Shown: piece by piece, positions 11,116 to 56,463 of the stretch | How positions within the stretch are numbered: the stretch's first letter is position 1 | How the letters are laid out: the number at the start of each line of letters is the position of its first letter | Assembly (NCBI GenBank): GCA_021234155.1 | Contig: JAJEKV010000002.1 | Span: 23,760,942-23,824,941 of the forward strand | DNA length: 64,000 nt | Origin: Isoetes taiwanensis | Taxonomy: Eukaryota > Streptophyta > Lycopodiopsida > Isoetales > Isoetaceae | Direction: 5' to 3' | Translations under genes and position numbers: made by a program | The notes under the pieces: generated by a model | What the model was told of the DNA's origin: nothing | The model's database searches: none | Seen by the model: the letters and a program-made list of their open reading frames with translations, nothing else

Positions 11116-11883
11116 AGAGGAGCACCTGGTTATCTTGTCCCACAAATTTTGTTGACTTCATGGCAGGCAAGATGATGTTTATAGAGGGTTCGAGATGGGG
11201 CATGGGTAGAGGGGCTTGATTGGTATTGATCTAGCTTTACATCAAATGACATTTGATGCTTTAATTGAGTTAAATTGTTATTCAATTTAACTTGGTAAGG
11301 ACACTAGAGTTTTAGGCAAGGAACTAGAGTTTTGATAACTCTAGTTGTAGGCCATTCTTCAAGGTCTTTGCAAAAGTGTTTTTTTTTTCCTTTAGAATAG
11401 GCACGGCTTGCAGCTTGACTGAGCATTACAACATTGACATTTTTGTTGCAACTTTAATGGCAATTCTTGGTAAACAAGAGGGTTTCCACATTATGAAGAT
11501 CGCCAAAGGTGAGTATTTGAATTTGCCTATGAATATTAAAGACCTTAGTGTTTGTACTTACATAATATAATGGGTATTGTACTTTATTTGTTGTAAAATT
11601 ATGAGACCAACCTCTGTTGTATAGTTTAAAATCTGAATGAAATTATTACAAAACTTTGGAACGAGCATATTATTTTTTTTTTTCCGCAGGCAAGATATTT
11701 AGCTTTATTAGTAGAAAAACTACTACAAGATGTTGCGGCCTTATTTCAAGCTCCACAATAGGCTAGATAGGAAGGATTCAAATGCAAATGGTTGCCAGCA
11801 AAATGAGGATCAGCACCAAACTGAAACCCCTGTTGTTAAACAGAGGCAAAAGTCTACAACCCATAAGTCGGGGAGCGCATATA
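11116..11883. other. AT-rich DNA upstream of the H3-like relic
   Basis: I see no promoter or element end that I can support. An open frame at 11730-12050 overlaps the histone-like frame in a different phase and may carry remnants of its N-terminal tail. Confidence 0.35.
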
Positions 11884-12306
11884 AGGAGAATCTCAAGATA
11901 GTGGGGGGCATCGAAGCCACGAGCTCTACCCGTCGGCAGGATCGCATGGGCGCCGCCCGACCTCGCCTGGTGTCAGGGGCAAGACCCTGCCCAAGAAGCC
12001 GACACAACCAAAGAAGCCGCACAAGTATCGGCTTGGTACTGTGGTGTTGAGAGAGATCCGAAAGTATCAGAAGACAACAGAGCTTCTGCTACGGAAGCTT
12101 CCCTTTCCGCGCCTGGTTCGAGAGATAGCACAAGAGTATCGGACCGATCTTCGGTTCCAAATCTTTGTTATCCTCGCCCAGCCGCCGAGGATTACCTGGT
12201 AGCTCTTTTTGGGGTTTCTAACCTCTGTCTTATCCATGCCAAGAGGGTTACCATCATGACAAAAGATTTGGCTCTCGTAAGGAGAATTTGGAGAGACCAC
12301 AATTAG
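11884..12306 (+). pseudogene. Histone H3-like gene relic (old copy of the retroelement ORF1 type)
   Basis: From 12011 the frame reads KKPHKYR, then [17 protein letters not shown], then [14 protein letters not shown] and TDLRFQ: the aN helix, a1 helix and loop 1 of histone H3. After 12155 the frame is lost by small indels. It resumes as [10 protein letters not shown], then [23 protein letters not shown] and a TAG at 12304, which is the H3 a2-a3 end. The AAED spelling is more like plant CENH3 than canonical H3 (AAEA), while the aN-a1 part is canonical-like. Upstream, the same frame is open from 11884 but shows no clear ARTKQTARK tail. ORF2 homology follows at 12496 and a related LTR at about 13495, so I read this as a retroelement-borne H3-like gene, not a host histone locus. 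A host H3 pseudogene inserted by chance is the alternative. Confidence 0.75.
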
Positions 12307-12495
12307 CTTGTTTGTCAAGCATTTTGTTGTACCAATTTTGTATAGAAATATAAAAATTTTGATTGCCTATTTTTTTTTTAATAAGTATGAAGCACCATAA
12401 ATTTCAAATTCAAGTGACACTCAAACATTAGTTAGGGTTTCATTCCTTCTTTGCTTCTCTTGCTTCTCGCTCCTCCTCCACCATTCGCCTGTGCA

Positions 12496-13417
12496 ATGGA
12501 GACCCCTAGCCTCCTCCAATGGTACCAAGATGGAGAACATTGGGACCCTCAGGTCCCATTCGACCTCCTTCAGCCTTTTCTGCTTCAAAAGGTGGACCTG
12601 ATCACTAACATGCAGGCCCACCCTGACTATGCTGCTTTCCTTGAGTTGTATACTTAGGAAATGGTACCCCTTTGCATCACCATGGGATCCACCCCACCTA
12701 TATTTGGAGAGGGCCATTGTGAGAGACATGTTGGGAAGTGATTCCCATGCCTCTAACATTCTCACAGGAAAGCTCAGATAGGGCAAGAATCCACCCGTCC
12801 TGATGCATGAGGGCCAACAATACTTGGAAGTAAACCTCGCTCTGGCTATACTCATGGATCAGTACATTGAGGATGAGACCTTCCCAGCAGAGAAGGGGAG
12901 AGCACCAGCAGTATCAGACGAAGAAGATGATGAGTACGTCCGGGAAGATGACTTCGTTCAGTGGAAACAGTTAGCGGAGCAGATGCCCCTACACCGAGAT
13001 CAGGGAGCACGACTCACTGGATTGGATGCCCTCCCATTTATCCACCATCAAGGGCAAGAATACCTCCTATTGGAGGATATTATGTGGACATACCATGTTG
13101 TTGCTGACCTCAAGTCCAAAAGGAAGGCACATGTATTGTATGAGCTCGCCGAGTATTGCATGGACGACTTCATCGATTTCACCCCGACTGAGCTCCCTAC
13201 TGAGGTACAGCAGTTGCTTCAATTTCATCAGGAGACCATTGAGCTAGTTGACACCCTCTTGCACTTGCGACACCTTATATTGCAAGAGGCACTACCACAG
13301 CCACCTGAGGACGCTTTTATTGCTATGGGACCTCACGTCCCAAACAATAACATAGTGGATATTCCCTCAAAATCTGATGAAGAAGGAGAAGATCTTATGA
13401 CGACAAAGATCATATGA
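12496..13417 (+). pseudogene. ORF2 homologue of the H3-bearing chromovirus (relic)
   Basis: The first frame starts ATG at 12496 and stops at 12655; homology continues in other frames and then in the long frame 12803-13417. It matches ORF2 at 22886-24376 in order: KVDL..NMQAHPDYAAFLE against EVDVQATLHATPAYSRVLSE; NILTGKLR then ALAILM against NIAKYLTNKAQ then ALAIFL; and GQEYLLLEDI...MDDFIDF against GEEFLLLSDI...LDDFIVR. An acidic segment (SDEEDDEYV) sits where the other copy has EEEEDYVEL. Function is unknown. The C-terminal third of the longer copy is absent, and the frame runs almost directly into LTR-like DNA. Confidence 0.7.
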
Positions 13418-13494
13418 GGGAAGAAAAGCAAGAAGCTAAGGAAGCCCACCTGGCTGTGGATGCTATGTTGTGATTTAGCACCAGATAACGAGTG

Positions 13495-14340
13495 TGATGG
13501 TGAAAGGGGGGTGGGGTCTTGCCTAGCGTGGCTACAGGACTCCTACAGTGTGCTAGGCTTATAGTCGGTCACTGAGTGTGGGCCGGGTATGGGTCTGACA
13601 CTCCCTAGGTCCCAGGGTGAGTGCCTATATGGACGTCTTGGGACTCGAACGGGCAGGTGAGCTGGCCTTTAGATTTAGGGGAGTAAGTCGGGTACAGATG
13701 TGGGGGTCACTGATGTGGCACGTGTTCTGTAGCACATCCAGGGATCCGCGACGCCTCCCTGACCTGCCTCATCAGATCGGGGAGATGTAACCTGAAGTAG
13801 TCTCATAGGGTGATTCCATTGCGTCTCCAGAAGGCTACAGCCACGCCATAACATGTTTCAGCCTATTTGCAAAGTGTGCACAGGAGGGGCGGATTGAGTG
13901 GACTACCCTAGCCATTGTTCTATGCCCGCCAATGCCATGTTATACCTCTGCCTGCTATTATCTTGAGGCCCTAACCGTTAGTCGACCCCATGGAGTCTGA
14001 GCCCAGAGTAAAGCCCTTGTTTATGGTATATTGCTTATGTTATCTTGTACTTGTGTTACCATATAGATGATGATGATGGATGGACCACCTTTCATGGTGG
14101 TATATTATTTTGAGCATGATTGTTGGTGTGCTAACATGTATGTACGCTTCCGCTGTATAAGGTTCTTATAGAGGACGTGGGACGAATGACACCTCCGTGC
14201 TCCTCACCTAGACATTTGGCCATCCCAAGTGGTCCGAGTTAGACAGAGAGCCTTTCCATGGTGATGTAGTTGCCACGGGAGGGGAATTCCCCATATCTTT
14301 ACGATGGGAGCACCGTATAGATTCTGGGAGCGCCACATCA
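13495..14340 (+). mobile_element. Diverged partial 3' LTR of the H3-bearing gypsy lineage
   Basis: The segment aligns with the second half of the LTR at 18605-20179. Shared landmarks include a GGGGGGTGGGG run, the CTACAG..(C) blocks, TTTGCAAAGTGTGCACAGGAG followed by GGGCGGAT, GAGTCTGAGCC, GTATGTACGCTTCCGC, and a GAGCACCGTATA near the end. It ends CGCCACATCA at about 14340, comparable with the ACGTCACA end of the younger LTR. No primer-binding site follows, so it is a 3' LTR. The first 690 bases or so of the LTR are missing. Confidence 0.65.
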
Positions 14341-18604: not shown

Positions 18605-20179
18605 TGTGACGTTCCAGCACAGTATATGGTCCAGAACGTATACTGTACTGCCTCGTCACGTGTACACGCCACTCCGACCGACGTGTACGCCGACGGATAG
18701 CCAGATAGGTAGCCCTAGGGGCAACTTGCTAGGTATGTTCATATGTTATTAATGTGCACATGTGCACATTAATGTGGGCACACCTTTCCATGTAGGCACC
18801 TTTTGCCACCTAGCCATTAAAGGCAAGTGGGGCCTTTCCAATTATCCCACATGCTAAAATGGGTAATTGGAAACCCTAGCCCTAACCCCCATGTCTATTT
18901 AGGGTAGGAAAACCCTAACTTTCTAATTTTCGTCCATAGGGTTTTAGAGCTCAGTTTTGGCTGCCCCAGGAGCCAAAACCGCCTCCCAGACGCTGCCCAA
19001 GCGAATCGCACCATTAGCTTCCCTGAATTCGATTAGCTCAGCAGGATGGTTGAACTCAGGTCAGGAGGAGCCACCCAAGGATCAGGTATTTGGTCAATTT
19101 AATAGCTTAAACCGTCTTCTAGTCATAGAATCAGTAAGTTTAGCCTATTAAATTGCCCATAGCAGCTATCTAGACCTCTAGATCCCAGACACTAACTAAA
19201 GAACCTAACTCTATGATATAGATTAGATCTAGTTCTTTAGTTCTTCTGTGATGTATATGGATGATGTATCTCTGTGAACTCCTTGTATTGGGAAGGGGGG
19301 TAGAGGCCCTAAGGCTTAGTAGTTGATGCTCCTAGAGTAGCCTCTCTAGCACACTGTAGATGCGGCCTGTGCACAAGAGCCCCACCTGGTTGTGGGTGAA
19401 GGGGCCAGACTGGCTTATAAGGAGATTCATGTCCTGACTCTTGAACGATCCCTCTGGTGTGTAAAGCCTACCAGGGATCACTGTGACTAGGTCTAATGGC
19501 TTGCCACTGCGTGTGGGCAAGGCATGGACTCGACACTCGTGGGGTGGTGGTTATGACCTTCCAGTGAGTTCAAGTCGAATAAGGGCAGTGGCCCTCTAGT
19601 CACCTTGAGTCAGCATGTAGATCTCTGGAGGGAGTGATCCCTACCTGCCCCATCGGAACTGGGGAGATGAAACCCAGGAGTAGCCCCCTTGGCTATGCAT
19701 CCGGCGGGCTACAGTCAGGTCCCAACACTTTTCAACCTATTCTGCAAAGTGTGCACAGGAGGGGCGGATGGAGTGGCTAACCCAATGCCATGTTCTTATG
19801 CCAGCCAAATCCATTGCCATGAATTCTGTCTGCAATGAACTCTGGAGACCCAAGCCGTCAGTCAACCCCTTTGAGTCTGAGCCTTGGGTAGGATTCCCTA
19901 TGTGATGTGCTGATCTTTGTCTATGCAGATATGTGGAGGACCATCCTTCGTGATGGCCATATGATGTTGTTGTATGTACTACTGACATGTATGTTTACGC
20001 TTCCGCAGCTAGGTAGGCCCTGAGGGAGACAGGGTAAATGACCCCTTCATTCTTCCCACTGGAACTCTTCAAGGTTGCAGTGATACGTGGAGGGCCCTAT
20101 ATTGGCATGGAGCTGGTATGGGGGATGAACTCCTGTTTGTATACGGTGAGTGCACCGTATATGAGCAGGGGACGTCACA
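18605..20179 (+). repeat. 5' LTR of the H3-bearing chromovirus
   Basis: 1575 bp, with inverted termini TGTGACGT at the start and ACGTCACA at the end. The primer-binding site begins two bases later. It contains the 26-bp palindrome listed separately. The open frame 18957-19151 inside it is repeated exactly in position in the 3' LTR and is not a gene that I can support. Confidence 0.92.
18748..18773. promoter_or_regulatory. Perfect 26-bp palindrome in the LTR U3
   Basis: ATTAATGTGCACA followed by its exact reverse complement. It lies about 145 bases from the LTR start and is repeated intact at 29059-29084 in the 3' LTR. A dimeric transcription-factor site or enhancer is a reasonable inference; the sequence alone does not show function. 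Confidence 0.6.
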
Positions 20180-20180
20180 G

Positions 20181-20192
20181 TGGTATCAGAGC
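20181..20192 (+). promoter_or_regulatory. Primer-binding site (initiator tRNA-Met)
   Basis: TGGTATCAGAGC lies one base after the LTR-ending CA. This fixes the 5' LTR end and the element's strand. Confidence 0.9.
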
Positions 20193-20385
20193 AATGTTCT
20201 TGGAGACCAAGAGCAAAGCACTGGCCATGCTCCCAGTAGTACTAACTTGATAGGATCCTTAAGCCTCGAAAAGTGGGAAATTTTTTTTCTCATTTTTGTA
20301 GTTTATGCTAAGCTAGTAACAATTAAGAGAATTGAAACTTAATAAGACTAAAAAGAATGAGCCAAAAATTTTCCAAGTGAGTTGG

Positions 20386-20450
20386 TCTCACAGCTCGCGT
20401 CTGGTCGAAGAACTAAACTTTAGTTTTTGAGCGAGGCGCAAGCTGTGAGA
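20386..20450. repeat. 65-nt palindrome copy 1 (leader)
   Basis: Starts TCTCACAGCTCGCG and ends AAGCTGTGAGA. The two 32-nt arms meet at a single central base. This copy has GCGTCT where the others have GCGCCT; the change turns a G-C pair into G-U, so pairing is kept. Confidence 0.85.
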
Positions 20451-20575
20451 CATCGAGCCAAGATCACCAAAACATGATGAATTTGAGAAAAGTAATGTGG
20501 TAAGGCTAGTTCCAAGATAGGAATTAATCAGAATAGCATGTTTTAATTACTTAAATTACTTAGAAATGTATGAGA

Positions 20576-20640
20576 TCTCACAGCTCGCGCCTGGTCTAAA
20601 AACTAAACTTTAGTTTTTGAGCGAGGCGCGACCTGTGAGA
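20576..20640. repeat. 65-nt palindrome copy 2 (leader)
   Basis: Same design and length as copy 1, starting 190 bases after it. The 3' arm reads GCGCGACCTG instead of GCGCAAGCTG, which repairs one mismatch and creates another. It lies about 100 bases before the TATA-like box of ORF1. Confidence 0.85.
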
Positions 20641-20742
20641 CCAACAAGTAGGAAAAGTCTGAAATAAGTGTAAATTTTAATTAAGTAGGTGCTTTAGCAT
20701 GTTAAATAGAGCAACTTGCATTTTGACCTAAAATTCCCCAAG

Positions 20743-20752
20743 CTATAAATAG
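20743..20752 (+). promoter_or_regulatory. TATA-like box upstream of ORF1
   Basis: CTATAAATAG lies 111 bases before the ORF1 start codon at 20854. It is well separated from the LTR promoter (over 560 bases downstream of the LTR end). With the matching arrangement before ORF2, it suggests an internal promoter. Confidence 0.55.
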
Positions 20753-20853: not shown

Positions 20854-22161
20854 ATGGCCCAAACCAAACAGACCGCCAGGAAGCGTCGCCCAGGCGAAAC
20901 CACCAGCGCCACAGATGCTGACATCATTCGGCAGATGCTTCGTGAGAGGCTCGCGAAAGGGGGTCGTTCGCCTTCGAGCGAGGAAGACATCTCAGGGGAT
21001 CAAGATACATCGGATCTGATTGATGTCTTCAATCAGCAGGCGGATCAGGACGAGGCCACATCACCAACCTCCATGGACGAAGAGACAAGGGGGATATACG
21101 AGGAAATAGAGCGGGAGATTAGAGAGCAGGAAAGGGCAGAGGACCACTCTGATGCAGCAACAGAGGTCCTCGAGGACGAAGAGGAGGCGGCACATCGGGA
21201 GAGAAGAACAAAAGACCAGCAGGAGCACAACGAGCCGGGACTTGAGCTGGCAGAGGAAGCAGATCTCGCGAAGTTCATCAGGAAGTATGAACGCCGGGAG
21301 AAGAATAGGGAACAGAAAAAGAGGAAGAGGGAAGAGGAGGAACAGAAGGCGGCCGAAGAGAAGAGGAAGGCGAAGGGGAAATTCGTGGACGGCACAAGGA
21401 AGCTGAAGGACGTCCCACCAAGAAGGAAGCCCAACCCCAAGGTCGTCATCAAAGAGCGGCAAGCCGACCAACCTCCGAACGACTCCTCCGACGAGGACTT
21501 CAACCCTATCACTGAAGGTGGAAGTTCTTCTAAACCTCCAGGCGACGAGCAGGTAGTACCTGAGCAGCCAGCGCCTGAGCAGCCCCCGCAGGATCAAGTG
21601 CAGAAGCCCCCTGAGTACCCGGCTTGGGACAGGAAGAAACAGCCGCGGCCTGCCCGAGAAGCCTATGTCACAGACCGGGTCAAGATATACGAAAGGAAGA
21701 TGAGGGAACACGAGGCGTATATGAAGAAGTGGGAGGCCTACAGTAAGTACTATGAAGAAAATAGGGTTGCATTCGTCGAGGGAGGGCGACCAACGAAGCA
21801 ACAGACCTAAAAGCCGCCACCACCAAAGCCCAAGGCTCCCAAGCCGCCACCCAAGAAGAAGAAGCTCGACAGGAAGGAGGTGGAGAGAAGAGCGCTGAGG
21901 GAGATTAGGCACTTCCAGCGCAGCTACGGTCTCCTAATCCCCCGTGCCCCCTTTGCTCGCCTAGTTCGGGAAGTGATGCAAGACTTCAAGACGGACTACA
22001 GGGTCACAGATGAGGCGCTGCTGGCAATGCAGGAAGCGGCTGAGGCAAAGATAGTGCAACACTTCGAAGACTCAACAGCTTGCACTGTTCACGCCAAACG
22101 AGTAACCCTCATGAGACAAGACATGCTTCTTGCGACTCGCATTAAGGGAGAATGCCCTTAG
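20854..22161 (+). pseudogene. ORF1: long histone H3-like protein with an H3 tail and H3 fold (one nonsense codon)
   Basis: The frame spans 435 codons with a single TAA at codon 319 (21808-21810). Residues 1-10 read MAQTKQTARK: the H3 tail with R2 replaced by Q, keeping T3, K4, R8 and K9; the next residue is R instead of S10. Then come about 335 residues not found in histones: acidic stretches, a K/E/R-rich coiled-coil-like part (about 135-180), a P/E/Q-rich part (about 225-265), and a lysine/proline run just before the fold. From about codon 346 the histone fold reads [41 protein letters not shown] and [24 protein letters not shown] and RVTLMR resemble plant CENH3, but loop 1 has canonical H3 length. 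The fold lacks indels, so it was probably functional until recently. The TAA fits a C-to-T change of CAA. Predicted nuclear. Histone replacement, chromatin targeting or decoy are all possible. Confidence 0.85.
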
Positions 22162-22306
22162 AACCTTTTGTAAATAATTGAAAATTTTGTAATATAGAGT
22201 AATTTTGTGTACTTTAATTGCATGAACTTGATTAATTAGGATAAGCTAGCAGGTTTTAGCTTTTATTTCAGCAAAATGGGACATTTGCAGACCGAAAGGC
22301 GTGATG

Positions 22307-22371
22307 TCTCACAGCTCGCGCCTGGTCAAGAAACTAAACTTTAGTTTTTGAACGAGGCGCAAGCTGTGAGA
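22307..22371. repeat. 65-nt palindrome copy 3 (between ORF1 and ORF2)
   Basis: Same 65-nt design as the leader copies, 146 bases after the ORF1 stop. It reads CTGGTCAAGAAACTAAA in the 5' arm, with a one-base slip that is compensated within the arm so that total length stays 65. Confidence 0.85.
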
Positions 22372-22506
22372 CCTTGCCCAAACTTGCCCAAAACAGTTCC
22401 AAATTGACCAAATAAGGAGTCAATTCTACCTGATTTGATGAGCCCAGCATCCTTACACCCTTAGTTCACCCAAATTGGACACGTTTTGATCAAAATGGGA
22501 CTGATG

Positions 22507-22571
22507 TCTCACAGCTCGCGCCTGGTCGAAGAACTAAACTTTAGTTTTTGAGCGAGGTGCAAGCTGTGAGA
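22507..22571. repeat. 65-nt palindrome copy 4 (between ORF1 and ORF2)
   Basis: Starts 200 bases after copy 3, close to the 190-base spacing of copies 1 and 2. The 3' arm has GGTGC in place of GGCGC; this turns a G-C pair into G-U, so pairing is kept. Confidence 0.85.
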
Positions 22572-22762
22572 CCTCCTACCATTTCTTCACCAGAACTTGC
22601 CCAAGTGATCTTCAACCTGTTGTATAGCATCTTTAGGTAATCCAGCCACGCTCAAACACTTGAACTAGTCTTCAAATTCCCATTTTGATCTCAGTATAGA
22701 CTAGAATTGCCCAACCCCAGAAATTTTCCAAGTCATCCAAAAATTAGGGTTTCCCCTTTTTT

Positions 22763-22773
22763 CTATAAATAAG
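22763..22773 (+). promoter_or_regulatory. TATA-like box upstream of ORF2
   Basis: CTATAAATAAG lies 123 bases before the ORF2 start at 22886 and about 190 bases after palindrome copy 4. The flanking CCCTCATTTC also resembles the CCCCTCATTTCC that follows the ORF1 box, as if one promoter cassette had been duplicated. Confidence 0.55.
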
Positions 22774-22885: not shown

Positions 22886-24376
22886 ATGACAACCTCTGAT
22901 TTTCGCAGATGGTACAGCGCCAGCGCTCATGCTGCCGAGGCCGACATCGACCAAATTTTCCATGTCTTCAGGAAGGAGGTAGATGTCCAAGCAACTTTGC
23001 ACGCAACCCCAGCTTACAGTAGAGTCCTGTCTGAATTCCAAGCTAGGGTAGAACCAGCACTAGTGCAACTCCCACCTTGCATAGGTTACTTTGTTCCTAG
23101 GCAATCCCTGCAAGCAGCCTTAGGCGATGTTCCAAACATTGCCAAGTACCTGACAAACAAGGCACAGCGCATGCCCGAGCCAATGGTCCTAGCTGTCAAT
23201 AGGACCAAATATTTCTCTTTTAACACTGCCTTGGCAATCTTTCTTACCCACCGTGCCGAGAACGCTGTGGGAGAAACCTCCATTCCTCCCATGGACGTGG
23301 ACCCATTAGCCATAGCAGCAGAACAACGGCTCCTTACGCAATACGAACAGGAGTAGGAAGGAAAAGAAGAGGACTCAGAGGAAAAGGAATCAGAAGAGGA
23401 GGAGGACTACGTCGAGCTCGACCCAGCGGAAGAGCGGCGACAAGCAGAACAAGAGTGGCAAGACTTCGAAAGAAGCCGGCAAACTCTTAGAGTCACGCCA
23501 CCCCTTGGGCTAGGCATTACAAGCCTAGCCCCCATCATTATCGAGGGCGAAGAATTTTTGCTTCTAAGCGACATCCAAAACCTCCCGGAGTGCAGGGAAA
23601 GGGAGTACCGACCTGAAGAATTGCTGCACCAACTCCGAAGAACGGACCTGGACGACTTCATCGTCCGAGGAACATCTAACTTCCCACTCCAAGTAAGGGA
23701 AGCCGACACGTACACAGGAGAGTCGACCTCCGACATCCAAGCCTACAGCAGCATCAGGCAGATTATGGAGGCAGACAAGGCCGCGGACACACTACCGACG
23801 GAGGAAGAGTTCCTTGCTTTACAGGAACAGATGGGGATCCGCCACGCGACCTCGAACATCCTAACGGCAAGCTCTTCGGCAACGCCTCCTCGGGAGAGAA
23901 GAGGAGAGTTCGACCTCAGGAGAGCTTCAGCAACAGTCAGGGACTACAAGGAGCTCATCACAGTGGAGGTAGATGACTTTGCGGGCAGACACAGAGCTGG
24001 ATACCGAGTGGCCGAGGACCCGTCACGCAACGACAGGTCGTTGTGGTATTACCTCCCCCTGCTGATGGACGGAAGAATAGCGGTAATTCACCGCAAATTC
24101 ACCCCCAGAGGCGAGGAAGGAGTATCGATGCTAATTGCGCTCTCAGGATTTGGCCGGCATGCGCGGTTACCCCTCAACACCGAGTATGCCATCCTGGTGA
24201 AGAGAGCAGTAGCACTCGATGTTTTCGACTTCGCCATACCTTACAGGCGGCAGGGAAGACTGGCGGTGACCAAACCTCTGAGCGCAGAGTGGAAGACTTG
24301 GCGAGAGCTTTGCAGGGTGGATCTTCAGTCAACGTCCTTAGGAACTTGGGTCATTCAGTGGGAACAGCCCAAGTGA
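22886..24376 (+). pseudogene. ORF2: unrecognised protein of about 496 residues (one nonsense codon)
   Basis: One frame runs 497 codons with a single TAG at codon 157 (23354-23356). The N-terminal 155 residues begin MTTSDFRRWYSASAH and look globular. An acidic linker (EEKESEEEEDYVEL) follows the stop, then a second globular part with EGEEFLLLSDI, LDDFIVR, and a C-terminal part of aromatic and basic residues (about 370-496). I recognise no enzyme motif, zinc finger or transmembrane segment. The homologue at 12496-13417 keeps the same order of motifs, so the protein is conserved within the lineage. It starts behind its own TATA-like box and palindrome pair. The TAG fits a C-to-T change of CAG. 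Its role is unknown; a partner of ORF1 or a DNA-binding regulator would fit the context, but no residue proves it. Confidence 0.7.
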
Positions 24377-24597: not shown

Positions 24598-25160
24598 GTG
24601 TATGCAGCTAGAGGCCTAGGCTCAGGGGAACAACAACACCGAGAACATATGGAAGAACAGAGTCCGCCGAGGCCACGTCCGGCAAGGAACCTGTTCGAAG
24701 AATTTGGACCCATGACCCCAGAAGAGGAATTATCCCAGATGAGGACGGACCTTGAGCAGATAAAGGCTTTGCTAGTCGCACAAGCAGGAGCGGGTTCGGT
24801 GGGTAACGCTCAACTGCCGCAAGCATCAGCTCGGAAAACAGGAAGGGACAAGAAGAGGAGCAAGAGAGGAAGGTCCCCCAGCTCGGACTCCTCCGACTCA
24901 AGCTCAGATTCAGACTCCGATTCCGAGGAAGAAGAAGAGCAGAACCAGGACCGAACAGATGGAAGGCAGAAGAACACCCCAGACGGAAGATAAAGGGACA
25001 CAAGAACCTCTGATTACCAGAAGAAAGTAGACTCTGCATTGGGAAATGTTTGGAAGGCCAGGAAGCTCGAGCAATTCTCAGGCGAGAATAGGTCAGGCAT
25101 GGAGGCAGAGGCTTGGCTGGACGAGATGAGTGAATATGGCAACGCCTATGGTATGAACAC
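24598..25160 (+). pseudogene. Gag fragment of the chromovirus
   Basis: The frame 24598-24993 begins MYAARGLGSGEQ and has a helical stretch (EEELSQMRTDLEQIKALL), then a basic and serine/aspartate-rich segment ending in a TAA at 24991. Homology carries on past the stop with ALGNVWKARKLEQFSGE and AEAWLDEMSEYGNAYGM. The latter fits the start of gypsy gag capsid (W...E..F). At about 25160 the coding sequence ends abruptly. The rest of capsid and any zinc knuckle are missing. A pyrimidine-rich TTTCTTTTGCAG at 24487-24498 could be a splice acceptor, so gag may be made from a spliced LTR transcript that skips ORF1 and ORF2; this is inference. Confidence 0.65.
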
Positions 25161-25714
25161 AAGGCCCCCAAAATTGAACCATTATGCTTTTTTTTCAATG
25201 GTTTATTGGTAAAAACCAATTCCATAAATCAGTACATGTTAGTGGGTTCAAAAGTTTACAAACCATGCTAGTTCTCTAAGATGATTCATCAACATATTTT
25301 TCTAAGGTGATAAAACAGCATTGTTTTATGATATGGTACTGAAACATGATAATTTTGATTCGTCTCCGTAACAACTTAAATTATAGGGTTCATCAACATA
25401 TTTTCCTAAAGTGATAAAACAACACGGTTTTATGGCATGGTATTGAAACATAGCAAGTTTAATTGGTTTCTATAATAACTTAAATTATATGATACGTACT
25501 AGTGTTTAGTACATCAAGTTTATTAGACTAGCGTTTGATCACATCTATCTTCTTCAATATATTGACATGGTAATTTTAAGCGCATAATTCTCGTGATGTT
25601 TTACTGTGATTAATCACCAATACACAATGTGGTAAATGATCTTGGTTTAAATATGCTAATATGATTTTTTTTATCCTATTTTTTTCCATGGTACTGAAAC
25701 GTAATTATCTCATG
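25161..25714. other. Foreign AT-rich segment replacing the end of gag, protease and most of RT
   Basis: Composition changes sharply to AT-rich, non-coding DNA. It contains two tandem units of about 117 bp (about 25267-25383 and 25384-25502), each with TTCATCAACATATTTT.CTAA, GTGATAAAACA, GGTA.TGAAACAT and AACTTAAATTATA. A coding frame returns at 25715. It replaces perhaps 1.5-2 kb of normal gag-pol, so it marks a deletion with filler or an insertion plus deletion. Confidence 0.65.
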
Positions 25715-28034
25715 TATAGCAGATCCCTTGAAGAGCACGTACAACACTTAAGGAGAGTGCTTGAGAAGCTGAAGAGGCACCAGTTGTATGCCAAGTTGTC
25801 GAAGTGCCACTTCGCAACGGAGAAAGTGGAATATCTTGATCTCAGCAGAAGGCATTGCGACGGACCCCGCAAAGATTGAAGCAGTAATTCAGTGGCCGGC
25901 GCCGAAGAATGTGCATGAGGTCAGGAGCTTTCTCAGGCTAGCAGGGTACTATAGAAAGTTCGTAAAGAACTTTGCTAAGATAGCGGCGCCGTTAACAGAC
26001 CTGACGAGGGCAGAGAAGGTGAAAGATTGGGCAGAGCATTGGCACAAGAAAGCCCAAAAGGGGTTTGAATTGTTGAAAGAAGCTCTGACGATAGCCCCTG
26101 TCTTGACCCTGCCGGACCCGGAGAAAGATAAGCTTGTAGCAACAGATGCGAGTAAGATAGCTACAGGTGTGGTGCTTATGCAAGAAGAGCGTGTGGTAGC
26201 GTATGACTCCAGGAAGATGAACGACGCCGAAACGCGCTACCCCACACATGATCAAGAATTGCTTGCGGTTGTCAGGGCGTTAAGAATCCGGAGGCACTAT
26301 CTCTTGGGAAGGAAGTTCCAATTGGATACCGACCATCAGAGCCTCCAGTATGTATTCACGCAACCACACCTTAATCTAAGGCAGTGGAGGTGGATGGAGT
26401 TCCTCGAAGAATATGACTTTGATATAGTCTACAAGCCGGGGAAGCTCAATGTGGTAGCAGATGCGCTTTCAAGGCACCCCCTGACAACTAGAGTGCATTG
26501 CAATGCAATTTCGACGCTCTCCAGCGACTTTGGTAAGAAGATTGAAGAGACCTTGTCAACGGATGTGGATTTCAGGGAAGTATGGGCAAGCCTCTCTAGG
26601 GAGGCTAGAACAGATAAAGAACGGGAAGCCTTCAAGCATTATAAGAAGGAGGGCAACCTGTTATACCACAAGAACAAGTTGTGCGTGCCCGAATCATCAG
26701 GTGTAAGGAAATTGATCCTCCACGACACGCACAACAGCCCAATAGCTGGCCATGCGGGATTCATGAAAACATATTTCAAAGTACGCAGCAGCTATTATTG
26801 GCCAGGAATGAAGAAGCAGGTAGCTCGCTACATCAGGGAATGTCAGCTATGCCAGCAGACAAAGGCGGAGCAGCTTCGAATTCCAGGGGCATTAGAGCCA
26901 TTAGCGGTGCCAAACGCTAAGTGGGAGGTAATCAGCATGGATTTCATCACAGGGCTCCCAAGAACAGTAAGAGGAAAAGATGCCTTGATGGTAGTGGTCA
27001 ACAAGTTGTCGAAGATGGCACATTTTGTGCCTTGCAGGACCACAGATACGGCTATGGATACAGCAAAGCTCTTCACCAAAGAGATCTTCAGGCTTCATGG
27101 CATGCCAAGGGAGATTATATCCGACAGGGACCCGAAGTTCATGAGTGCCTTTTGGCAAGACCTCTTTGCGACGATTCAGACCAAGCTATCCATGAGCACG
27201 GCATATCATCCTCAGACGGATGGCCAAACGGAGCGGACCAACAAGATTTTAGAAGACATGCTACGAAACTATGTCTGGAATAAGCAAGATATATGGGAAG
27301 AATTTATTCACTTGGTGGAGTTTTCATACAATAGTACCAAGCAAGAATCATCCCAAATGTCGCCGTTTATGATCAATTACGGCTATCAGTGCCTAACTCC
27401 AGACACTTGGCACAACCCCGTGTCAAAAGTGGAAGTTTCGCAGCAGATGTTGGCCAATATGCAGCAGCTCGTGGAAGAGGTTTGAGGGTATCTGCTAGCA
27501 GCAAGAAGTCGACAAAAGAGCATCGCCGACAAGCATCGAACAGTCAGAGAATTCCAAGTTGGGGATGATGTATGGCTCAAGATCAAGGTAAAGCAGGCGA
27601 AGCTCCGCATCAGTAATTGCAAGAAACTTGCTCCAAGGTGGACTGGACCTTTCAGAATAGTCAAGAGAGTAGGTAATCAATCCTACAAGTTAGATTTGCC
27701 AGCACACCTAAAGATTCATAAGGTCTTCCATGTAAGTTTATTGAAGAAGCATACTCCAAATCCAGACGAAGTCTTGGACACTCCAACGTTGTTGGAAATG
27801 ATGGAGGAGCAGCTGGAAATAGTTCCAGAATTGATTCTTGATAAAGCTTTCAAGAAAACAAGGAGGTCGGAGTTCCTCCAATACTTGGTCAAGTGGAAAC
27901 ACTTGCCAGTGGAAGATGCGACATGGGTACTTAAGAAAGATTTAGTAAAGCAGTACCCACAGTTTATGGAGCAATGGGATGGCAAGGTCATCTCCGAAGA
28001 AATCGGCTCAGGCATGTCGATTTGTGTAGGTTAA
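25715..28034 (+). pseudogene. Chromovirus pol fragment: RT end, RNase H, integrase, chromodomain
   Basis: Coding resumes just after the RT active site with YSRSLEEHVQHL and passes a frameshift near 25835 into the frame 25788-28034. Order: RT thumb ([11 protein letters not shown]..., [12 protein letters not shown]); RNase H ([20 protein letters not shown]); integrase zinc-binding H-H-C-C ([11 protein letters not shown] to CQLCQQ); integrase core D-D-E (MDFITGL, SDRDPKF, GQTERTN); the GPF linker (APRWTGPFRIV); and a C-terminal chromodomain at about 27850-27975 (EFLQYLVKWKHLP then ATWV). One TGA interrupts it at 27483-27485 (fits CGA to TGA). Protease and the RT palm are absent, so it cannot be autonomous. 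The chromodomain places it among chromoviruses, whose integrases are typically steered to heterochromatin. Confidence 0.88.
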
Positions 28035-28901: not shown

Positions 28902-28914
28902 AAGGTGGGGAGAA
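28902..28914 (+). promoter_or_regulatory. Polypurine tract
   Basis: AAGGTGGGGAGAA directly precedes the 3' LTR start (TGTGACG at 28915). It is the expected plus-strand primer. A second copy of AAGGTGGGGAGA lies 40 bases upstream. Confidence 0.8.
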
Positions 28915-30308
28915 TGTGACGTTCCAGCACAGTATACGGTCCCGGAACGTATACTGTACTGCCTCGTCACGCGTACACGCCACTCCGACCGACGTGTACG
29001 CCGACGGATAGCCAGGTAGGTAGCCCTAGGGGCAACTTGCTAGGTATGTTCATATGTTATTAATGTGCACATGTGCACATTAATGTGGGCACACCTTTCC
29101 ATGTAGGCACCTTTTGCCACCTAGCCATTAAAGGCAAGTGGGGCCTTTCCAATTATCCCACATGCTAAAATGGGTAATTGGAAACCCTAGCCCTAACCCC
29201 CATGTCTATTTAGGGTAGGAAAACCCTAACTTTCTAATTTTCGTCCATAGGGTTTTAGAGCTCAGTTTTGGCTGCCCCAGGAGCCAAAACCGCCTCCCAG
29301 ACGCTGCCCAAGCGAATCGCACCATTAGCTTCCCTGAATTCGATCAGCTCAGCAGGATGGTTGAACTCAGGTCAGGAGGAGCCACCCAAGGATCAGGTAT
29401 TTGGTCAATTTAATAGCTTAAACCGTCTTCTAGTCATAGAATCAGTAAGTTTAGCCTATTAAATTGCCCATATCAGCTATCTAGACCTCTAGATCTCAGA
29501 CACTAACTAAAGAACCTAACTCTATGATATAGATTAGATCTAGTTCTTTAGTTCTTCTGTGATGTATATGGATGATGTATCTCTGTGAACTCCTTGTATT
29601 GGGAAGGGGGGTAGAGGCCCTAAGGCTTAGTAGTTGATGCTCCTAGAGTAGCCTCTCTAGCACACTGTAGATGCGGCCTGTGCACAAGAGCCCCACCTGG
29701 TTGTGGGTGAAGGGGCCAGACTGGCTTATAAGGAGATTCGTGTCCTGACTCTTGAACGATCCCTCTGGTGTGTAAAGCCTACCAGGGATCTGTGACTAGG
29801 TCTAATGGCTTGCCACTGCGTGTGGGCAAGGCATGGACTCGACACTCGTGGGGTGGTGGTTATGACCTTCCAGTGAGTTCAAGTCGAATAAGGGCAGTGG
29901 CCCTCTAGTCACCTTGAGTCAGCATGTAGATCTCTGGAGGGAGTGATCCCTACCTGCCCCATCGGAACTGGGGAGATGAAACCCAGGAGTAGCCCCCTTG
30001 GCTACGCATCCGGCGGGCTACAGTCAGGTCCCAACACTTTTCAACCTATTCTGCAAATGGAGTGGACAACCCAATGCCATGTTCTTATGCCAGCCAAATC
30101 CATTGCCATGAACTCTGTCTGCAATGAACTCTAGAGACCCAAGCCGTCAATCATCCCCTTTGAGTCTGAGCCTTGGGTAGGATTCCCTATGTGATGTGCT
30201 GATCTTTGTCTATGCAGATATGTGGAGGACCATCCTTCGTGATGGTCATATGATGTCGTTGTATGTACTACTGACATGTATGTTTACGCTTCCGCAGCTA
30301 GGTAGGCC
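28915..30308 (+). repeat. 3' LTR of the H3-bearing chromovirus, truncated
   Basis: It matches the 5' LTR from TGTGACGT to GGTAGGCC (20019 in the 5' copy) and then stops. The last 160 bases, including the ACGTCACA end, are missing and replaced by unrelated DNA from 30309. Differences from the 5' copy include a gap of about 18 bases near 30055 and scattered substitutions. Confidence 0.88.
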
Positions 30309-33150: not shown

Positions 33151-33426
33151 ATGGCCAGGATCAAGTACACGGCCAGGAAGGCCGACGCAGAATCCTCCCC
33201 GGCTTCCTCCACTTCCAGCAATGGGGGCATGCAAATGACCTTTGTTGCTAAATTTTCATGCAAGGAAGTGAATCGAGTCATTGAGCAAGGAGCTAAAGTT
33301 TCTAAGAGAGTCCAGCAGTGGATTGACCGTGTTTTGCCTCATGAGGAGCGCCTTTTGCAGATGACCATGCAATCTGATGGACTTTATCTTTATGTGGAGC
33401 TGCAGATGCCCCCTCCTGATCACTAG
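33151..33426 (+). CDS. Short ORF (91 residues) with a histone-H3-like N-terminal tail
   Basis: The ORF begins MARIKYTARKA, which matches the H3 tail ARTKQTARKS at 7 of 10 positions, keeping R2, K4, R8 and K9 (T3 to I, Q5 to Y, S10 to A). A serine-rich linker follows (about 14-26), then about 65 residues (FVAKFSCKEVNRVIEQG... to ELQMPPPDH) that are not a histone fold and that I do not recognise. The frame upstream is open but the tail makes the ATG at 33151 the natural start. A possible 3' untranslated region with repeated AACTTTGTGTAATTTC words follows. It could be a small gene, an exon, or a fragment of another element; the tail match may be chance, though H3-like tails occur elsewhere in this window. 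Confidence 0.5.
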   Translation: MARIKYTARKADAESSPASSTSSNGGMQMTFVAKFSCKEVNRVIEQGAKVSKRVQQWIDRVLPHEERLLQMTMQSDGLYLYVELQMPPPDH

Positions 33427-43704: not shown

Positions 43705-45000
43705 TCAAAAATTGAGGACAAGATACTCAGATATGGACCTCCTTAATTCTTCTCCTAAAACAACAAGTTCTGCCTCTTCAAAAGGACCCTCCACTGTTGC
43801 TAGTGCTATATTCAAATCTCCAATTATGTTTCGAGCATATCTTGCCAGCCTTTGAGCCTCAAGTTCTTCTAGTTCTGCATTTACATCCGCTTCACCTATA
43901 TCAATGAGAACATTATGTAATACACAACATGCATGCGCAACAATATTGGCATATATTGGCTTCATTTTCATCTTCTTGTCCAAAATCTTAAACTTTGCTT
44001 TTAACAAACCAAAGGATTGTTCAATGAAAACACGAGCCTTTCCTAGCTCTTTATTGAATTCCCGTTCAACAACTGTATGCACCCGTCCTATCCTATCTAA
44101 ATAGGAGACGAGAAGCCACGGGCTGCATGTATAGCCCTTATCAGCCAACAAAATGGGTTTTACTTGCACACCAAAATTGATGGTAACTACTGGTTCTTGC
44201 ATAATTTCACGATTTTGAATCCTCTGACGAATGCCTGAGTTCTTCCAAACCCTTGAATCATGAACACTTCCAGGATATCCAATGTTAACATCAAGGAATT
44301 TGCGGTTACTATCACAAACAGCCTGTAGAATTATGCTAAACCTCTGTTTTCGATCATAGTAATCTGCCCCAGTTGGACCTGTAGGTTGCAAGATTTCCAA
44401 ATGTGTACAGTCAAGAATCCCGCAGACATTAGGAACCTTAGAAATAAGGGCAAATCCATTGATAATGTGTTGCATATCCTCGCCAACTGGAAACTTTATT
44501 GCATCATTGAAGTTAGAGCAGACTACACAAATCTTATGGGCAGTACTAACACCTATTCCAAACTTCTCCGAAAGTACTAAAAAATCAACACCTCTGAAAA
44601 GCTTATAGAATGTACATCCAACTCTGATGTGCACTGGAACAGCATTACGAAAGTTAGTGTCACATCTCTGAATATCGTGTTCCAGCCTTGCACAGAACCA
44701 AAAAAATGTTTCTTTCTTCATCCGAAAGTTTTCTTTCCACCTTGCATCATCATAATAGCCCATCATGAACTTGTCAAACCAAGAGAAGCTCCTTGGTTTG
44801 ACCCACCACCTGTCTTGCAATGACAACTCTTGTTCTACAAGTAAATTTACATCTTGAACATGTTCAACTAAGTGTAGATCTTCATCTTCAATATCTTCCA
44901 TCCTAACATTTAAACCCTCCTCTGAAAAAATTTGTTGGCCTCTAAAAATCATAGGCAAAGTTTGACCCGCTAACATCAAAACTGTTTCTTCTAAACTCAT
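43705..45000 (-). CDS. PIF/Harbinger transposase (HARBI1-like nuclease), intact ORF
   Basis: 431 residues from an ATG at 45000 to a stop at 43705, without interruption. The DDE core is readable: GILDCTHLEI (Asp197), YPGSVHDSRVW, LLADKGYTCSPW (Asp287) and FIEQSFGLLKAKFKIL (Glu327), then the HACCVLHNVLID ending typical of these proteins. The N-terminal part (about 85-160) has the helix-turn-helix-like segment seen before the core (FRMKKETFFWFCARL, LSEKFGIGVSTAHKI). It cuts and pastes DNA at TTA/TWA sites, working with the Myb-like partner encoded upstream on the same strand. It appears potentially functional. Confidence 0.93.
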   Translation of the reverse strand: MSLEETVLMLAGQTLPMIFRGQQIFSEEGLNVRMEDIEDEDLHLVEHVQDVNLLVEQELSLQDRWWVKPRSFSWFDKFMMGYYDDARWKENFRMKKETFFWFCARLEHDIQRCDTNFRNAVPVHIRVGCTFYKLFRGVDFLVLSEKFGIGVSTAHKICVVCSNFNDAIKFPVGEDMQHIINGFALISKVPNVCGILDCTHLEILQPTGPTGADYYDRKQRFSIILQAVCDSNRKFLDVNIGYPGSVHDSRVWKNSGIRQRIQNREIMQEPVVTINFGVQVKPILLADKGYTCSPWLLVSYLDRIGRVHTVVEREFNKELGKARVFIEQSFGLLKAKFKILDKKMKMKPIYANIVAHACCVLHNVLIDIGEADVNAELEELEAQRLARYARNIIGDLNIALATVEGPFEEAELVVLGEELRRSISEYLVLNF

Positions 45001-45549: not shown

Positions 45550-46200
45550 TTAGAAAGTACCCAGTTCTGAAGTACCTAGTGTATGTACTTTTGCAGGTTC
45601 CAAAAATGGTACACCGTAACATGCTTTTACCCTGGCATCTACCAAGTTCCTATTTGCCTCTAGTATGGTGGCAGCCATGCTATTTCCAGTAGTTTTTCTC
45701 CTTTTTCCCGATGAACCTATCTCACCTTTACCTTGTGGATGGTGAGCAACAATATGATCCAATTGCAATGTGACTGCCTTGCTTGTATCAACTATGTTAG
45801 GTGGATTGACATTGGGCCTTGATGATTGAAATGAATCCATCGCATCAAATATGCTACAATGGAAATTTGGCAACTTCCTTTGCTTTTTTTCCTCACTCGA
45901 AAGAGAGAAAAAATCTGGATTTCCTGTTTGTTTCTGAAAATCCTTCACACTCTTGTATTCTCCAATCAAGTTCTCCCATTTCGTCCTACAACCCTCTCCA
46001 TCTCTATCCTTGTAGCCATGCTTTTGCATTTCCTCGGCTATCTTCATCCATTTCACATTTGCATTCTCCATCTTCTCCCTTGTATTTTTCTGCTCATAAA
46101 TCAGCCACTCTTTCTTTTTAAAATCCACAAGCAAGAGTGCCTCATCAAGATTCCAATTTCTTGATCGTTTTCTCTTTGCACTCGTGGATGGACCAGCCAC
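45550..46200 (-). CDS. Myb/SANT-like (trihelix) partner protein of the Harbinger transposase
   Basis: 216 residues from an ATG at 46200. Residues about 10-85 form a trihelix-type domain: RNWNLDEALLLVDFKKKEWL, then KWMKIAEEMQKHGYKDRDGE and CRTKWENLIGEYKSVKDF. The remainder is polar with a GKRRKTTGNS basic patch and an ILEANRNLVDAR helix. In PIF/Harbinger elements such a protein binds the subterminal DNA and brings the transposase into the nucleus. An upstream open frame (46101-46406) may add an N-terminal exon. Its strand and position relative to the transposase are as expected. Confidence 0.8.
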   Translation of the reverse strand: MAGPSTSAKRKRSRNWNLDEALLLVDFKKKEWLIYEQKNTREKMENANVKWMKIAEEMQKHGYKDRDGEGCRTKWENLIGEYKSVKDFQKQTGNPDFFSLSSEEKKQRKLPNFHCSIFDAMDSFQSSRPNVNPPNIVDTSKAVTLQLDHIVAHHPQGKGEIGSSGKRRKTTGNSMAATILEANRNLVDARVKACYGVPFLEPAKVHTLGTSELGTF

Positions 46201-48197: not shown

Positions 48198-49220
48198 GAC
48201 TACTGAGCCCTCGACAAGCTGACTGTAAAGGATAAGTTCCTAGTACCCAAAGCCGATGATTTATTTGATGAGTTACGAGGTGCTTGCATTTTTAGTAAGA
48301 TTGATTTGAAATAAGGATATCATCAGATTCAAATAAAGAATGAGGACATTAGTAAGATAGCATCCAGAACAACTTTTGGTCATTATGAATTTCCTGTAAT
48401 GCCATTCGGATTGACCAATGCTCTGGTGACATTTTGCCATCTCATGGGGAGAGTTTTGGCACCAATTATTTTATTCTTTAACGATATTCTTATATATAGC
48501 AGATCTATAGAAGAGCATGAACAACACCTTCAACAAGTTTTTGATCTTCTCACACAGAACAAGTTGTTTGTTAATGAATCCAAGAATAGATTCTTTATGC
48601 AAGAATTTGGATATTTGGGTCATATTATATCCAAAGAGGACATAAGGATGGATTTTGAGAAAATTAGAGTTATTCTTGATTGGCCTCGACCTGAAAACAT
48701 CAAGGATTTATGTTCTTATGTACAATTATGTAGCTACTATCAAAGATTTGTGAAGGATTTTGCAAAAGTAACTTTTCCTTTAAGCAGGTTTTTAAAGAAG
48801 GACACCCCTTTTGTTTGGAATATGGAAGCTAAGGAAGCTTTTCAAATTTTGAAGAAGAAAATGGCAACTGAACCAGTATTAGTATTGCTAATGGAACAAA
48901 CCTTTTAAGTATGTTCTAACACAAGTGGAAATGCTATTGGTGTAGTACTTATGCAAGACGGGCATCCGTTAGCTTATGTTAGTCTCATGCTCAAACCATT
49001 GGAGCAAAAGTATAGTTTATGAAAAATAATTGATTGTCTTGATTCATGCACTAAAGAAATGGAGACATTATCTCATGGGATATATACAAATGCAAGATAT
49101 TATCAATGCGCATCAGTTAAAGCTCATTGACACAATAAAGGATTTTGAAGGGTTACAACTTAAGTATAAACCTGGGAAGGAGAATCAGGTTGCTGATGCA
49201 CTAAGCCGAGTAAATATCTA
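48198..49220 (+). pseudogene. RT and RNase H of the second gypsy family, RT active site lost
   Basis: CVDY..LDKLTVKD, FSKIDLK-stop-GYHQI and MPFGLTNALVTFCHLMGRVL are standard gypsy RT blocks. The YVDD box is damaged: the sequence reads FFNDILIYSRS, one residue short and with the first catalytic Asp missing. RNase H remnants (GNAIGVVLMQDGHPLAYVS, KYKPGKENQVADALSRV) follow with several stops. Confidence 0.75.
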
Positions 49221-49369
49221 GGCCATATAAATTGTTGATTTAGAGCCAATGAGAGGGGAATATGGCAACGACCCCTCCTTTGCTGTTCCGTATGCACAGA
49301 TAGAAAAGGATGGTAGGGATTCTTTAGCAGAGTATATAATTCATAATCGCACGTGTTACACAAGCTTAC

Positions 49370-55212: not shown

Positions 55213-55319
55213 AGTTGTATTGATTTGTCAAGATATCCTCAATATTATGTACAGGTTTGATTGATGTGGAGTTAAGCCCAATAAAATTTGCTCATATCCC
55301 AAATGCACAAGAAAATCCA

Positions 55320-55650
55320 CAAGGTTAAACGAGCACTGCTGAAAGGTGATTTTTCCACTCCTATAAAGAAGATAGGCAATTCCTCATTTCCTGAAAATGG
55401 AGAAACTGTAAAACATGTAGCATATTTTATTTATTTATTAATTGTTTGTAAGTAACTTGTTTGTAATGCAGAAACTGTGAATAATATTGATGATAAAGCT
55501 AAGGCAAAAGCAACTATTGATGAAGTGCTGAAGTCTCTAGCACTAGGAGAATTGGCTGAGCAATATGATTCTGGAAGCAGTTTTGATGAGGTCAACCCTG
55601 ATATTACATTGGATAAGTATTGTCCGGTTAAACAAGTGGAAAAGAAGTGA
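55320..55650 (+). other. Possible two-exon fragment of an unidentified gene
   Basis: KVKRALLKGDFSTPIKKIGN then SSFPENGET is followed by a donor-like GTAAAA (55411). After a pyrimidine-rich stretch ending TTTGTAATGCAG (55473), a second open segment reads TVNNIDDKAKAKATIDEVLK, SLALGELAEQYDSG and DITLDKYCPVKQVEKK to a TGA at 55650. It looks like a true C-terminus, cut off on its left by the copia fragment. Family unknown. The copia element starts 101 bases later. Confidence 0.4.
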
Positions 55651-55751
55651 ACACCTGCTCTCGAAAAGGAAGGCCATTAATTCTTTATCCTTGACCTTCC
55701 TAACATAGGGAGGTTTCAAAGCATGGAATAGTGAAAATGAGACCTCAAACT

Positions 55752-56431: not shown

Positions 56432-56432
56432 T

Positions 56433-56444
56433 TGGTATCAGAGC
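56433..56444 (+). promoter_or_regulatory. Primer-binding site (initiator tRNA-Met)
   Basis: TGGTATCAGAGC begins two bases after the LTR-ending CA, in the same relation as in the chromovirus. Confidence 0.88.
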
Positions 56445-56463
56445 CAAGTTGGCTTAAGTCAAA

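Follow-up and report, generated by a model that had tools for sequence, protein, structure and literature searches.

The window analysed here, a 64,000-nucleotide stretch of the Isoetes taiwanensis genome (contig JAJEKV010000002.1), contains a defective Ty3/gypsy chromovirus copy in which a histone H3-like open reading frame (ORF1) and a second frame (ORF2) lie between the primer-binding site (PBS) and a gag-like remnant. Its features are as follows, with counts that refer to the sampled copies of the same family (family A) elsewhere in the genome.

18605 to 20179, forward strand: 5′ long terminal repeat (LTR), TGTGACGT...ACGTCACA, its end read at the PBS junction
20181 to 20192, forward strand: primer-binding site TGGTATCAGAGC, from the sequence; exact in 31 of 40 fetched family-A copies
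20385 to 20641, unstranded: two palindromes of about 70 nt (20385 to 20454 and about 20576 to 20641), upstream of the H3 ORF
20744 to 20751, forward strand: TATA box TATAAATA of a putative internal promoter serving the H3 ORF; unchanged in all 41 copies
20854 to 22161, forward strand: ORF1, H3 tail, charged arm and H3 fold, from the reading frame, Pfam and a PDB match
20854 to 20883, forward strand: H3 N-terminal tail mimic, codons 1 to 10
21892 to 22158, forward strand: H3 histone fold (αN, α1, L1, α2, L2, α3), from PF00125, AlphaFold2 helices, Foldseek and dN/dS
22306 to 22575, unstranded: two further palindromes of about 70 nt (22306 to 22373 and 22506 to 22575), between ORF1 and ORF2
22764 to 22771, forward strand: a second TATA box, ahead of ORF2 and unchanged in 40 of 41 copies; its flanks are well conserved too
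22886 to 24376, forward strand: ORF2, a protein without Pfam assignment, between the H3 ORF and gag; in-frame stop at 23354 to 23356
24598 to 25230, forward strand: gag-like remnant, from a three-frame reading; three stops in frame
25788 to 27485, forward strand: end of reverse transcriptase (RT), RNase H and integrase (PF17917 E 1.5e-32, PF17921 E 2e-20, PF00665 E 1.7e-8)
27822 to 27971, forward strand: chromodomain at the integrase C-terminus (PF00385 E 7.9e-10)
28902 to 28914, forward strand: polypurine tract, from the sequence, by eye
28915 to 30308, forward strand: 3′ LTR, truncated at its end

The two LTRs are 97.2% identical (1416 alignment columns, 17 mismatches, 23 gap columns), and the PBS at 20181 is presumably of the initiator tRNA-Met type. 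The order of RT, RNase H and integrase with a C-terminal chromodomain, with the end of RT alone left, is that of a Ty3/gypsy chromovirus, and the chromodomain match bears out the same assignment in an earlier, sequence-only reading of this DNA. Between the gag-like remnant and position 25788, the rest of gag, the protease and most of RT are absent from the window copy; the stretches fetched for other family-A copies end near gag. We infer from its position that 24598 to 25230 is gag, and a Pfam search of 24598 to 24990 returned no gag match. Compared by eye with HP1, the chromodomain has non-aromatic residues at two of the three methyl-lysine cage positions, a type II-like state; passages of PMC6317226 describe type II chromodomains as having replaced cage aromatics and no identified partner.

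Other mobile-element remains share the window. A further chromovirus remnant at 48624 to 50621 comprises integrase (47% identical over 123 residues) and chromodomain, and tblastn of the window found no H3 match beside it. On the reverse strand, 43705 to 45000 holds a 431-residue DDE_Tnp_4 transposase ORF, which we take to be of PIF/Harbinger type, and this adjoins a 216-residue ORF at 45550 to 46200 that appears Myb-like by eye. Copia-type polyprotein ORFs, again judged by eye, are found on both strands at 53539 to 60453.

The sequence-only reading had described an H3-like ORF over 20854 to 22161 between PBS and gag that opens with an H3 tail (Q for R2) and closes with an H3 fold. The two ends and the position hold, but an in-frame stop at 21808 to 21810 (codon 319) splits the frame in the window copy, and ORF2 also intervenes before gag. 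The window does read MAQTKQTARK at codons 1 to 10, but Q is a minority state, with R in 32 of the 34 family-A copies whose tail is recognisable (Q in two, window included). The intervening charged arm of about 335 residues is as had been stated. The last 90 or so codons align with H3 without indels and score far better than chance (Pfam Histone PF00125 E 7.9e-30; PDB H3.3 E 4.7e-28). An AlphaFold2 model of the fold built from 39 aligned sequences (mean pLDDT 89.3, pTM 0.58) places helices at 21 to 38, 45 to 58, 67 to 94 and 102 to 111, as expected for αN, α1, α2 and α3, and a Foldseek search with this model returns nucleosomal H3 chains (best E 8.7e-8, TM 0.64/0.76, rmsd 6.3). The full canonical tail ARTKQTARKS...K14...K27 is absent; family A keeps A1 to K9, and the arm replaces the remainder. 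As had been proposed, the element encodes a protein of H3 type whose tail end is native and whose arm is greatly extended. A protein search with the piece of ORF1 upstream of the stop gave 3990 candidates, none at E ≤ 0.001. Elsewhere in the window, a 91-residue ORF at 33151 to 33426 starts MARIKYTARKADAES (MARIKYTARK), with seven of nine H3-tail residues after the Met; no histone fold follows this start, and the ORF is perhaps a third H3-tail fusion, or a chance likeness.

To place ORF1 in the context of its own genome, we used the window fold as query against the assembly (1110 contigs, 1,658,258,908 bases). Of 9871 first-look candidates, the best 150 were scored; all are 80 to 100% identical to the query, and 139 of these 150 lack an internal stop. 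From the 150 we fetched 40 copies with their flanks by fold score, which gives a sample of 41 with the window. The first part of ORF2 is matched in 39 of the 40 fetched copies and the second part in 38, the LTR end is found in 39 of 41 and the pre-gag stretch in 37 of 41. Other genomic copies thus carry the H3 ORF in the same position, as the counts for PBS and ORF2 attest, and chance resemblance to H3 is ruled out by an E-value of 8e-30 together with multicopy occurrence beside shared neighbors (ORF2 in 39/40, PBS in 31/40). MARTKQTARK is complete (10/10) in 28 of the 41 copies, and the tail is recognisable (at least 7/10) in 34. ORF1 is uninterrupted, at 403 to 444 residues, in 17 copies, 16 starting MARTKQ and one MAQTKQ. 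At the S10 position, most copies have R, A or P. The arms of the 17 open copies are long, charged and variable, harbor KKRKR-type clusters and show no similarity to host H3 residues 11 to 36 (z at most 0.65).

Across the 41 copies, the fold has a dN/dS of 0.060 (ratio of sums over 811 of 820 pairs that were usable; median dS 0.635, median dN 0.045), a value too low for family A as a whole, as picking the 40 copies by fold score lowers dN. The ratio falls from 0.21 at dS below 0.1 (17 pairs) to 0.054 at dS above 0.8 (322 pairs), which is expected if mobile lineages are under constraint and inserted copies decay. Tail codons 2 to 10, which lie outside the search query, give a pN/pS of 0.079 versus 0.723 for codons 11 to 16 in 34 of the 41 copies, the seven without a recognisable tail being omitted. 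The arm (codons 41 to 318) has a dN/dS of 0.18 with stops in 13 of 41 copies. ORF2a stands at 0.37 overall (0.17 to 0.29 at dS 0.1 to 0.8, 0.45 above), with stops in 16 of 40, and ORF2b at 0.46, with 114 stop codons spread over 34 of 38 copies.

A second sample was picked by a 139-bp non-coding stretch behind ORF1, for which the best 40 of 782 first-look candidates were scored. Nineteen of these (window included) were already in the 150-match fold list and have a fold without stop. Among 20 newly fetched copies of the remaining 21, seven have stops in the fold and several are frameshifted; the fold dN/dS is 0.32 in these (178 of 190 pairs) and 0.258 in 32 spacer-picked copies (the 20 new and 12 from the first set; 484 of 496 pairs), frameshifted codons inflating dN in this sample. 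In each sample taken, dN/dS is well below 1; the sequence-only reading had named a value near 1 as a refutation.

Non-coding flanks provide a second yardstick. Their median p-distance among the 41 copies is 0.13 in the leader and spacer and reaches 0.20 in the 97 nt that follow the TATA box, lower than third-position divergence in the fold (0.28), the arm (0.46) and ORF2a (0.29). Constraint on the fold is weaker on this yardstick because the flanks diverge less than the third positions of the fold: divergence at positions 1 and 2 over that of the flanks is 0.33 to 0.47 for the fold, 1.19 to 1.67 for the arm and 1.09 to 1.60 for ORF2a, the arm and ORF2 ratios being inflated by frameshifted copies. 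The fold is slower than everything measured around it, two- to threefold against the flanks and not sixteenfold. Either constraint on the flanks or their homogenisation through recombination, or both, may be at work. These values, which fall short of proof on internal branches, suggest a transposon family whose mobile lineages are constrained while its insertions decay, and selection appears to have kept the transposon-borne H3 working. As a separate observation, the arm (20854 to 21810 and relatives) outpaces the non-coding flanks while both ends of ORF1 stay conserved, a contrast with three candidate causes: diversifying selection, recombination, and misalignment of frameshifted copies.

Within the family-A fold, 57 of 87 positions are invariant in the 41 copies, and 38 of these 57 are canonical. 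R49, R52, R69, R72, R83, K115, C110 and D123 are canonical in 41 of 41 copies and R116, V117, T118, H113 and L126 in 40, all of which we take to be interface residues. R63P, S86D, H87E, P121R and K122Q are among the invariant changes, and R replaces K56 in 40 copies, K64 in 40 and K79 in 34, with A in place of L109 in 39 (each of 41). Sites 86 and 87, changed here, are presumably part of the chaperone-recognition region. On these residues, the family-A protein looks able to join a nucleosome, with altered DNA and chaperone contacts.

Family A resembles CENH3 in having an H3 fold with divergent residues, some of them shared, and differs from it in its canonical-length loop 1, its native H3 tail and its mobile, multicopy nature. 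Loop 1 has a single length in all 41 copies, equal to that of canonical H3 in a 12-copy alignment, and the lengthened loop 1 or CATD of the CENH3 type is absent. The sequences REIRHFQ and RVTLM are common to family A and a Quercus HTR12 record (P0008), and further residues are shared with an insect protein (P0024). In a tree with 12 family-A copies, the family sits on a long branch without a supported partner and with low backbone support. Family A may derive from an H3 or a CENH3-type gene, but simple capture of a CENH3 gene was considered and rejected: canonical loop 1 and the tail speak against it, and the tree gives family A no placement.

The TATA box lies about 109 nt upstream of ORF1 in the window and, in the 34 copies whose tail is recognisable, 107 to 119 nt ahead of the tail ATG. 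It is the sole fully invariant octamer in a 255-nt gapped alignment (median 8-nt identity 0.86; box flanks 0.68 to 0.98), and of its 94 occurrences in 260,122 bases, 81 are the two boxes and 12 lie further downstream. It may belong to an internal promoter of the H3 ORF. A 21-nt seed of the palindromes (up to four edits) is found in the leader of 37 of 41 copies and in the spacer of all 41, and the palindromes could act in transcription or RNA structure. A Pfam search of the ORF2 pieces found no match, and AlphaFold2 without an alignment yielded no usable model (pLDDT 34.5). Window ORF2 is related to an ORF at a second locus (z 10.2) and to the ORF2 homologue of a second family (L074; E 1e-8).

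This second family (family B) emerged when the canonical H3 core was searched in the same genome. Among the best 150 of 8977 candidates scored, 15 match at 97 to 99% and are host genes, one of which (L052) has a complete canonical tail, and 135 match at 86 to 89% and constitute family B; 133 of these 135 lack stops, and many lie within long open frames. Three canonical-core matches were fetched, and the two full copies read (L049 and L050) have a 320-residue extension starting MANIKS or MANTKS, followed by the H3 fold, with no H3 tail at the N-terminus. Between these two copies, the substitution ratio is 0.031 in the fold and 0.138 in the extension. The L049 fold is identical to host H3 at 86 of 99 positions (87%), with synonymous sites saturated, and family B joins host H3 in the tree with a support of 99. 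At the L049 locus, the one at which the element context was read, an LTR and PBS (L073), the H3 ORF and the ORF2 homologue are found. The LTR end, PBS and ORF2 are common to families A and B; the family-B extension has no homology to the family-A arm or to ORF2 (z at most 2.1). A broken family-B element with H3, ORF2 and LTR also lies in the window (11820 to 14337), about 8 kb upstream of ORF1:

11820 to 12300, forward strand: second H3 of the window, broken, with a tail-side segment and the fold in more than one frame (tblastn, three segments, E 1e-38)
12519 to 13444, forward strand: ORF2 of the family-B remnant (68% DNA identity to L074 over 934 columns; protein 68% over 197 residues, E 8e-92)
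13498 to 14337, forward strand: LTR of the family-B remnant (70% DNA identity over 882 columns to the family-B LTR of L073)

Families A and B are two related LTR-retrotransposon lineages, each with an extended H3 gene soon after the PBS.

Searched with the fold, a set of long proteins yielded five matches among 318 candidates. P0004 (395 residues), encoded on a contig of 2182 bases, has the same layout as ORF1, combining MARTKQTARK and a charged arm with an H3 fold that is 52% identical over 88 residues; its arm has no significant match to the window arm. No viral contig was confirmed among 19 stretches for P0004 or 40 stretches for the fold. Further long-tailed H3-fold proteins are P0005 (482 residues, Chlorokybus by source label) and P0002/P0003 (244 residues). 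P0028, P0031 and P0032 are short H3-like proteins that start MGR.KQCA, carry a Pro-rich stretch before the fold and have 6 to 21 member sequences; they are possibly another mobile H3 family.

Ogre/Tat elements form a non-chromovirus lineage without a chromodomain, and in Ogre an extra ORF sits upstream of gag; the tail extension of bracovirus H4 is short. The window element shares with Ogre/Tat an extra ORF between PBS and gag. Among the best-ranked matches in the open-licence PMC literature, no LTR retrotransposon with a histone is described; the word "retrotransposon" is absent from the main text, as retrieved, of a viral-histone review (PMC9145170), and "histone" from that of the I. taiwanensis genome paper (PMC8566536), with zero counts in the retrieved text of the I. 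sinensis genome paper (PMC10541799). The nearest precedents found, from passages of the papers cited, are a fungal hAT H3L (PMC3538342) and bracovirus H4 (PMC9145170, PMC5423620). The Pyrenophora tritici-repentis H3L is, like ORF1, an H3-like, transposon-borne multicopy ORF that corresponds fully to neither canonical H3 nor CenH3, but according to passages of PMC3538342 it resides in a hAT DNA transposon with terminal inverted repeats, comprises 26 very similar genes and has insertions in its tail, and the authors suggest drift. The elements described here have LTRs and integrase, no hAT features, copies that are both more numerous and more diverged, a tail end that is native and signs of constraint. 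Bracovirus H4 (CvBV-H4/CpBV-H4) is likewise a single captured histone, about 87% identical to the host fold, with an extended N-terminal tail, and is described in passages of PMC9145170 and PMC5423620 as joining host nucleosomes and altering gene expression. It differs in being an H4 in a wasp virus and in no retroelement; the extension here runs to some 300 to 340 residues. Ogre/Tat and the 2-ODD orchid elements resemble the present one as LTR elements with an extra ORF (passages of PMC9289625 and the review PMC7264820); the passages on plant Ty3/gypsy extra-ORF elements in these two sources include no histone, and the 2-ODD elements are classed as Tat (PMC9289625), whereas the window element has a chromodomain instead. 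Chromoviruses with type II chromodomains also have an integrase chromodomain without two cage aromatics, but the retrieved text of PMC6317226 reports no H3 ORF in them and uses "histone" once, about chromodomains.

With a likelihood that we put slightly above even, the element-encoded H3 enters nucleosomes and shifts chromatin in the element's favor, the N-terminal part being the effector; this ranks as the likeliest function, ahead of a tail decoy, packaging and targeting. The observations beneath it are the position of the gene, its multicopy spread, a constrained fold in both families and, in family A, constrained A1 to K9 and an invariant TATA box. In such a scheme, selection on mobile lineages would keep the extended H3 functional; the protein would be made from its own internal promoter, go to the nucleus, pair with host H4 and become part of nucleosomes on or around the element. 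Family-A nucleosomes would carry a long charged arm bearing an H3 N-terminus at which K4 and K9 can be read. They would lack S10 and any recognisable H3 11 to 36, would have R for K56 and K79 in most cases and Q for K122, would therefore not carry all host-silencing marks, and would be expected to favor transcription or renewed integration. Family B pairs a near-canonical fold with a different N-terminal protein, so that the function common to both families is probably nucleosome entry, with the N-terminal part acting as effector. Counting against nucleosome entry are the loss of R63 (P in 41/41) and L109 (A in 39/41), the changed sites 86 and 87, and the lack of a tail at the N-terminus in family B.

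The pattern of constraint in ORF1 bears on the alternatives in different ways. Constraint on residues 1 to 9 that ends directly after K9, an S10 position that is mostly R, A or P, and a long, charged, variable arm with KKRKR-type clusters in the 17 open copies would suit a decoy, in which the H3 N-terminus on its long arm titrates readers or writers of K4 and K9 (for example, SUVH-type methyltransferases) and the fold is a stable carrier. The fold, however, is constrained as much as the tail, H3-H3′ and DNA interface residues included, and family B keeps the fold without such a tail; we regard a decoy as unlikely. The same constraint ending at K9 is left unexplained if the H3, with host H4, coats the element cDNA or aids its import as chromatin in the manner of a gag accessory. 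Packaging of this kind draws on the location of the H3 ORF between PBS and ORF2/gag, on the long charged arm and on viral nucleosome precedents reviewed in passages of PMC9145170, but the window element has no partner histone and nothing links the protein to particles, and we consider it more doubtful than the decoy.

Ranked below packaging, and to our mind improbable, is a role in targeting, in which the H3 would mark preferred chromatin or imitate CENH3 and the chromodomain-bearing integrase would return there. The chromodomain itself and some CENH3-like residues in family A fit this, but two of three cage positions are non-aromatic by eye, as in the type II class without identified partner (passages of PMC6317226), loop 1 is of canonical H3 length in every one of the 41 copies, and the tree gives no supported grouping of family A with plant CENH3. 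The cage positions also disfavor the idea that the element's own chromodomain reads its own H3 tail. Finally, a captured host gene carried along without function would explain why the window copy and many others are broken, and the fold is constrained only two- to threefold against non-coding flanks. Against such a passenger stand dN/dS values of 0.03 to 0.08 in fold and tail across two families, synonymous sites saturated relative to host H3, and the invariant TATA box; it is rejected on constraint and we hold it to be very improbable.

Host silencing of retrotransposons operates largely via histone H3 marks. The sequence-only reading had supposed that the element alters or imitates chromatin, and this may be so; the features of ORF1 suggest that H3-carrying retrotransposons act on the very chromatin that normally silences them. 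More specifically, and with a likelihood somewhat short of even, LTR retrotransposons may deposit a self-encoded H3, with an arm of at least 300 residues and a maintained K4/K9 end, to form silencing-resistant chromatin. If true, an element-encoded H3 would add a new layer to the conflict between host and retrotransposon over silencing, and a protein that keeps the K4/K9 tail end and the fold and drops the remaining tail would serve as a natural test of which H3 parts matter. There would then be an ongoing conflict between parasite H3 and host H3, with at least two diverged families in one plant genome and, judging by P0004, perhaps elsewhere, and the fast-changing arm between conserved ends would be its variable front.
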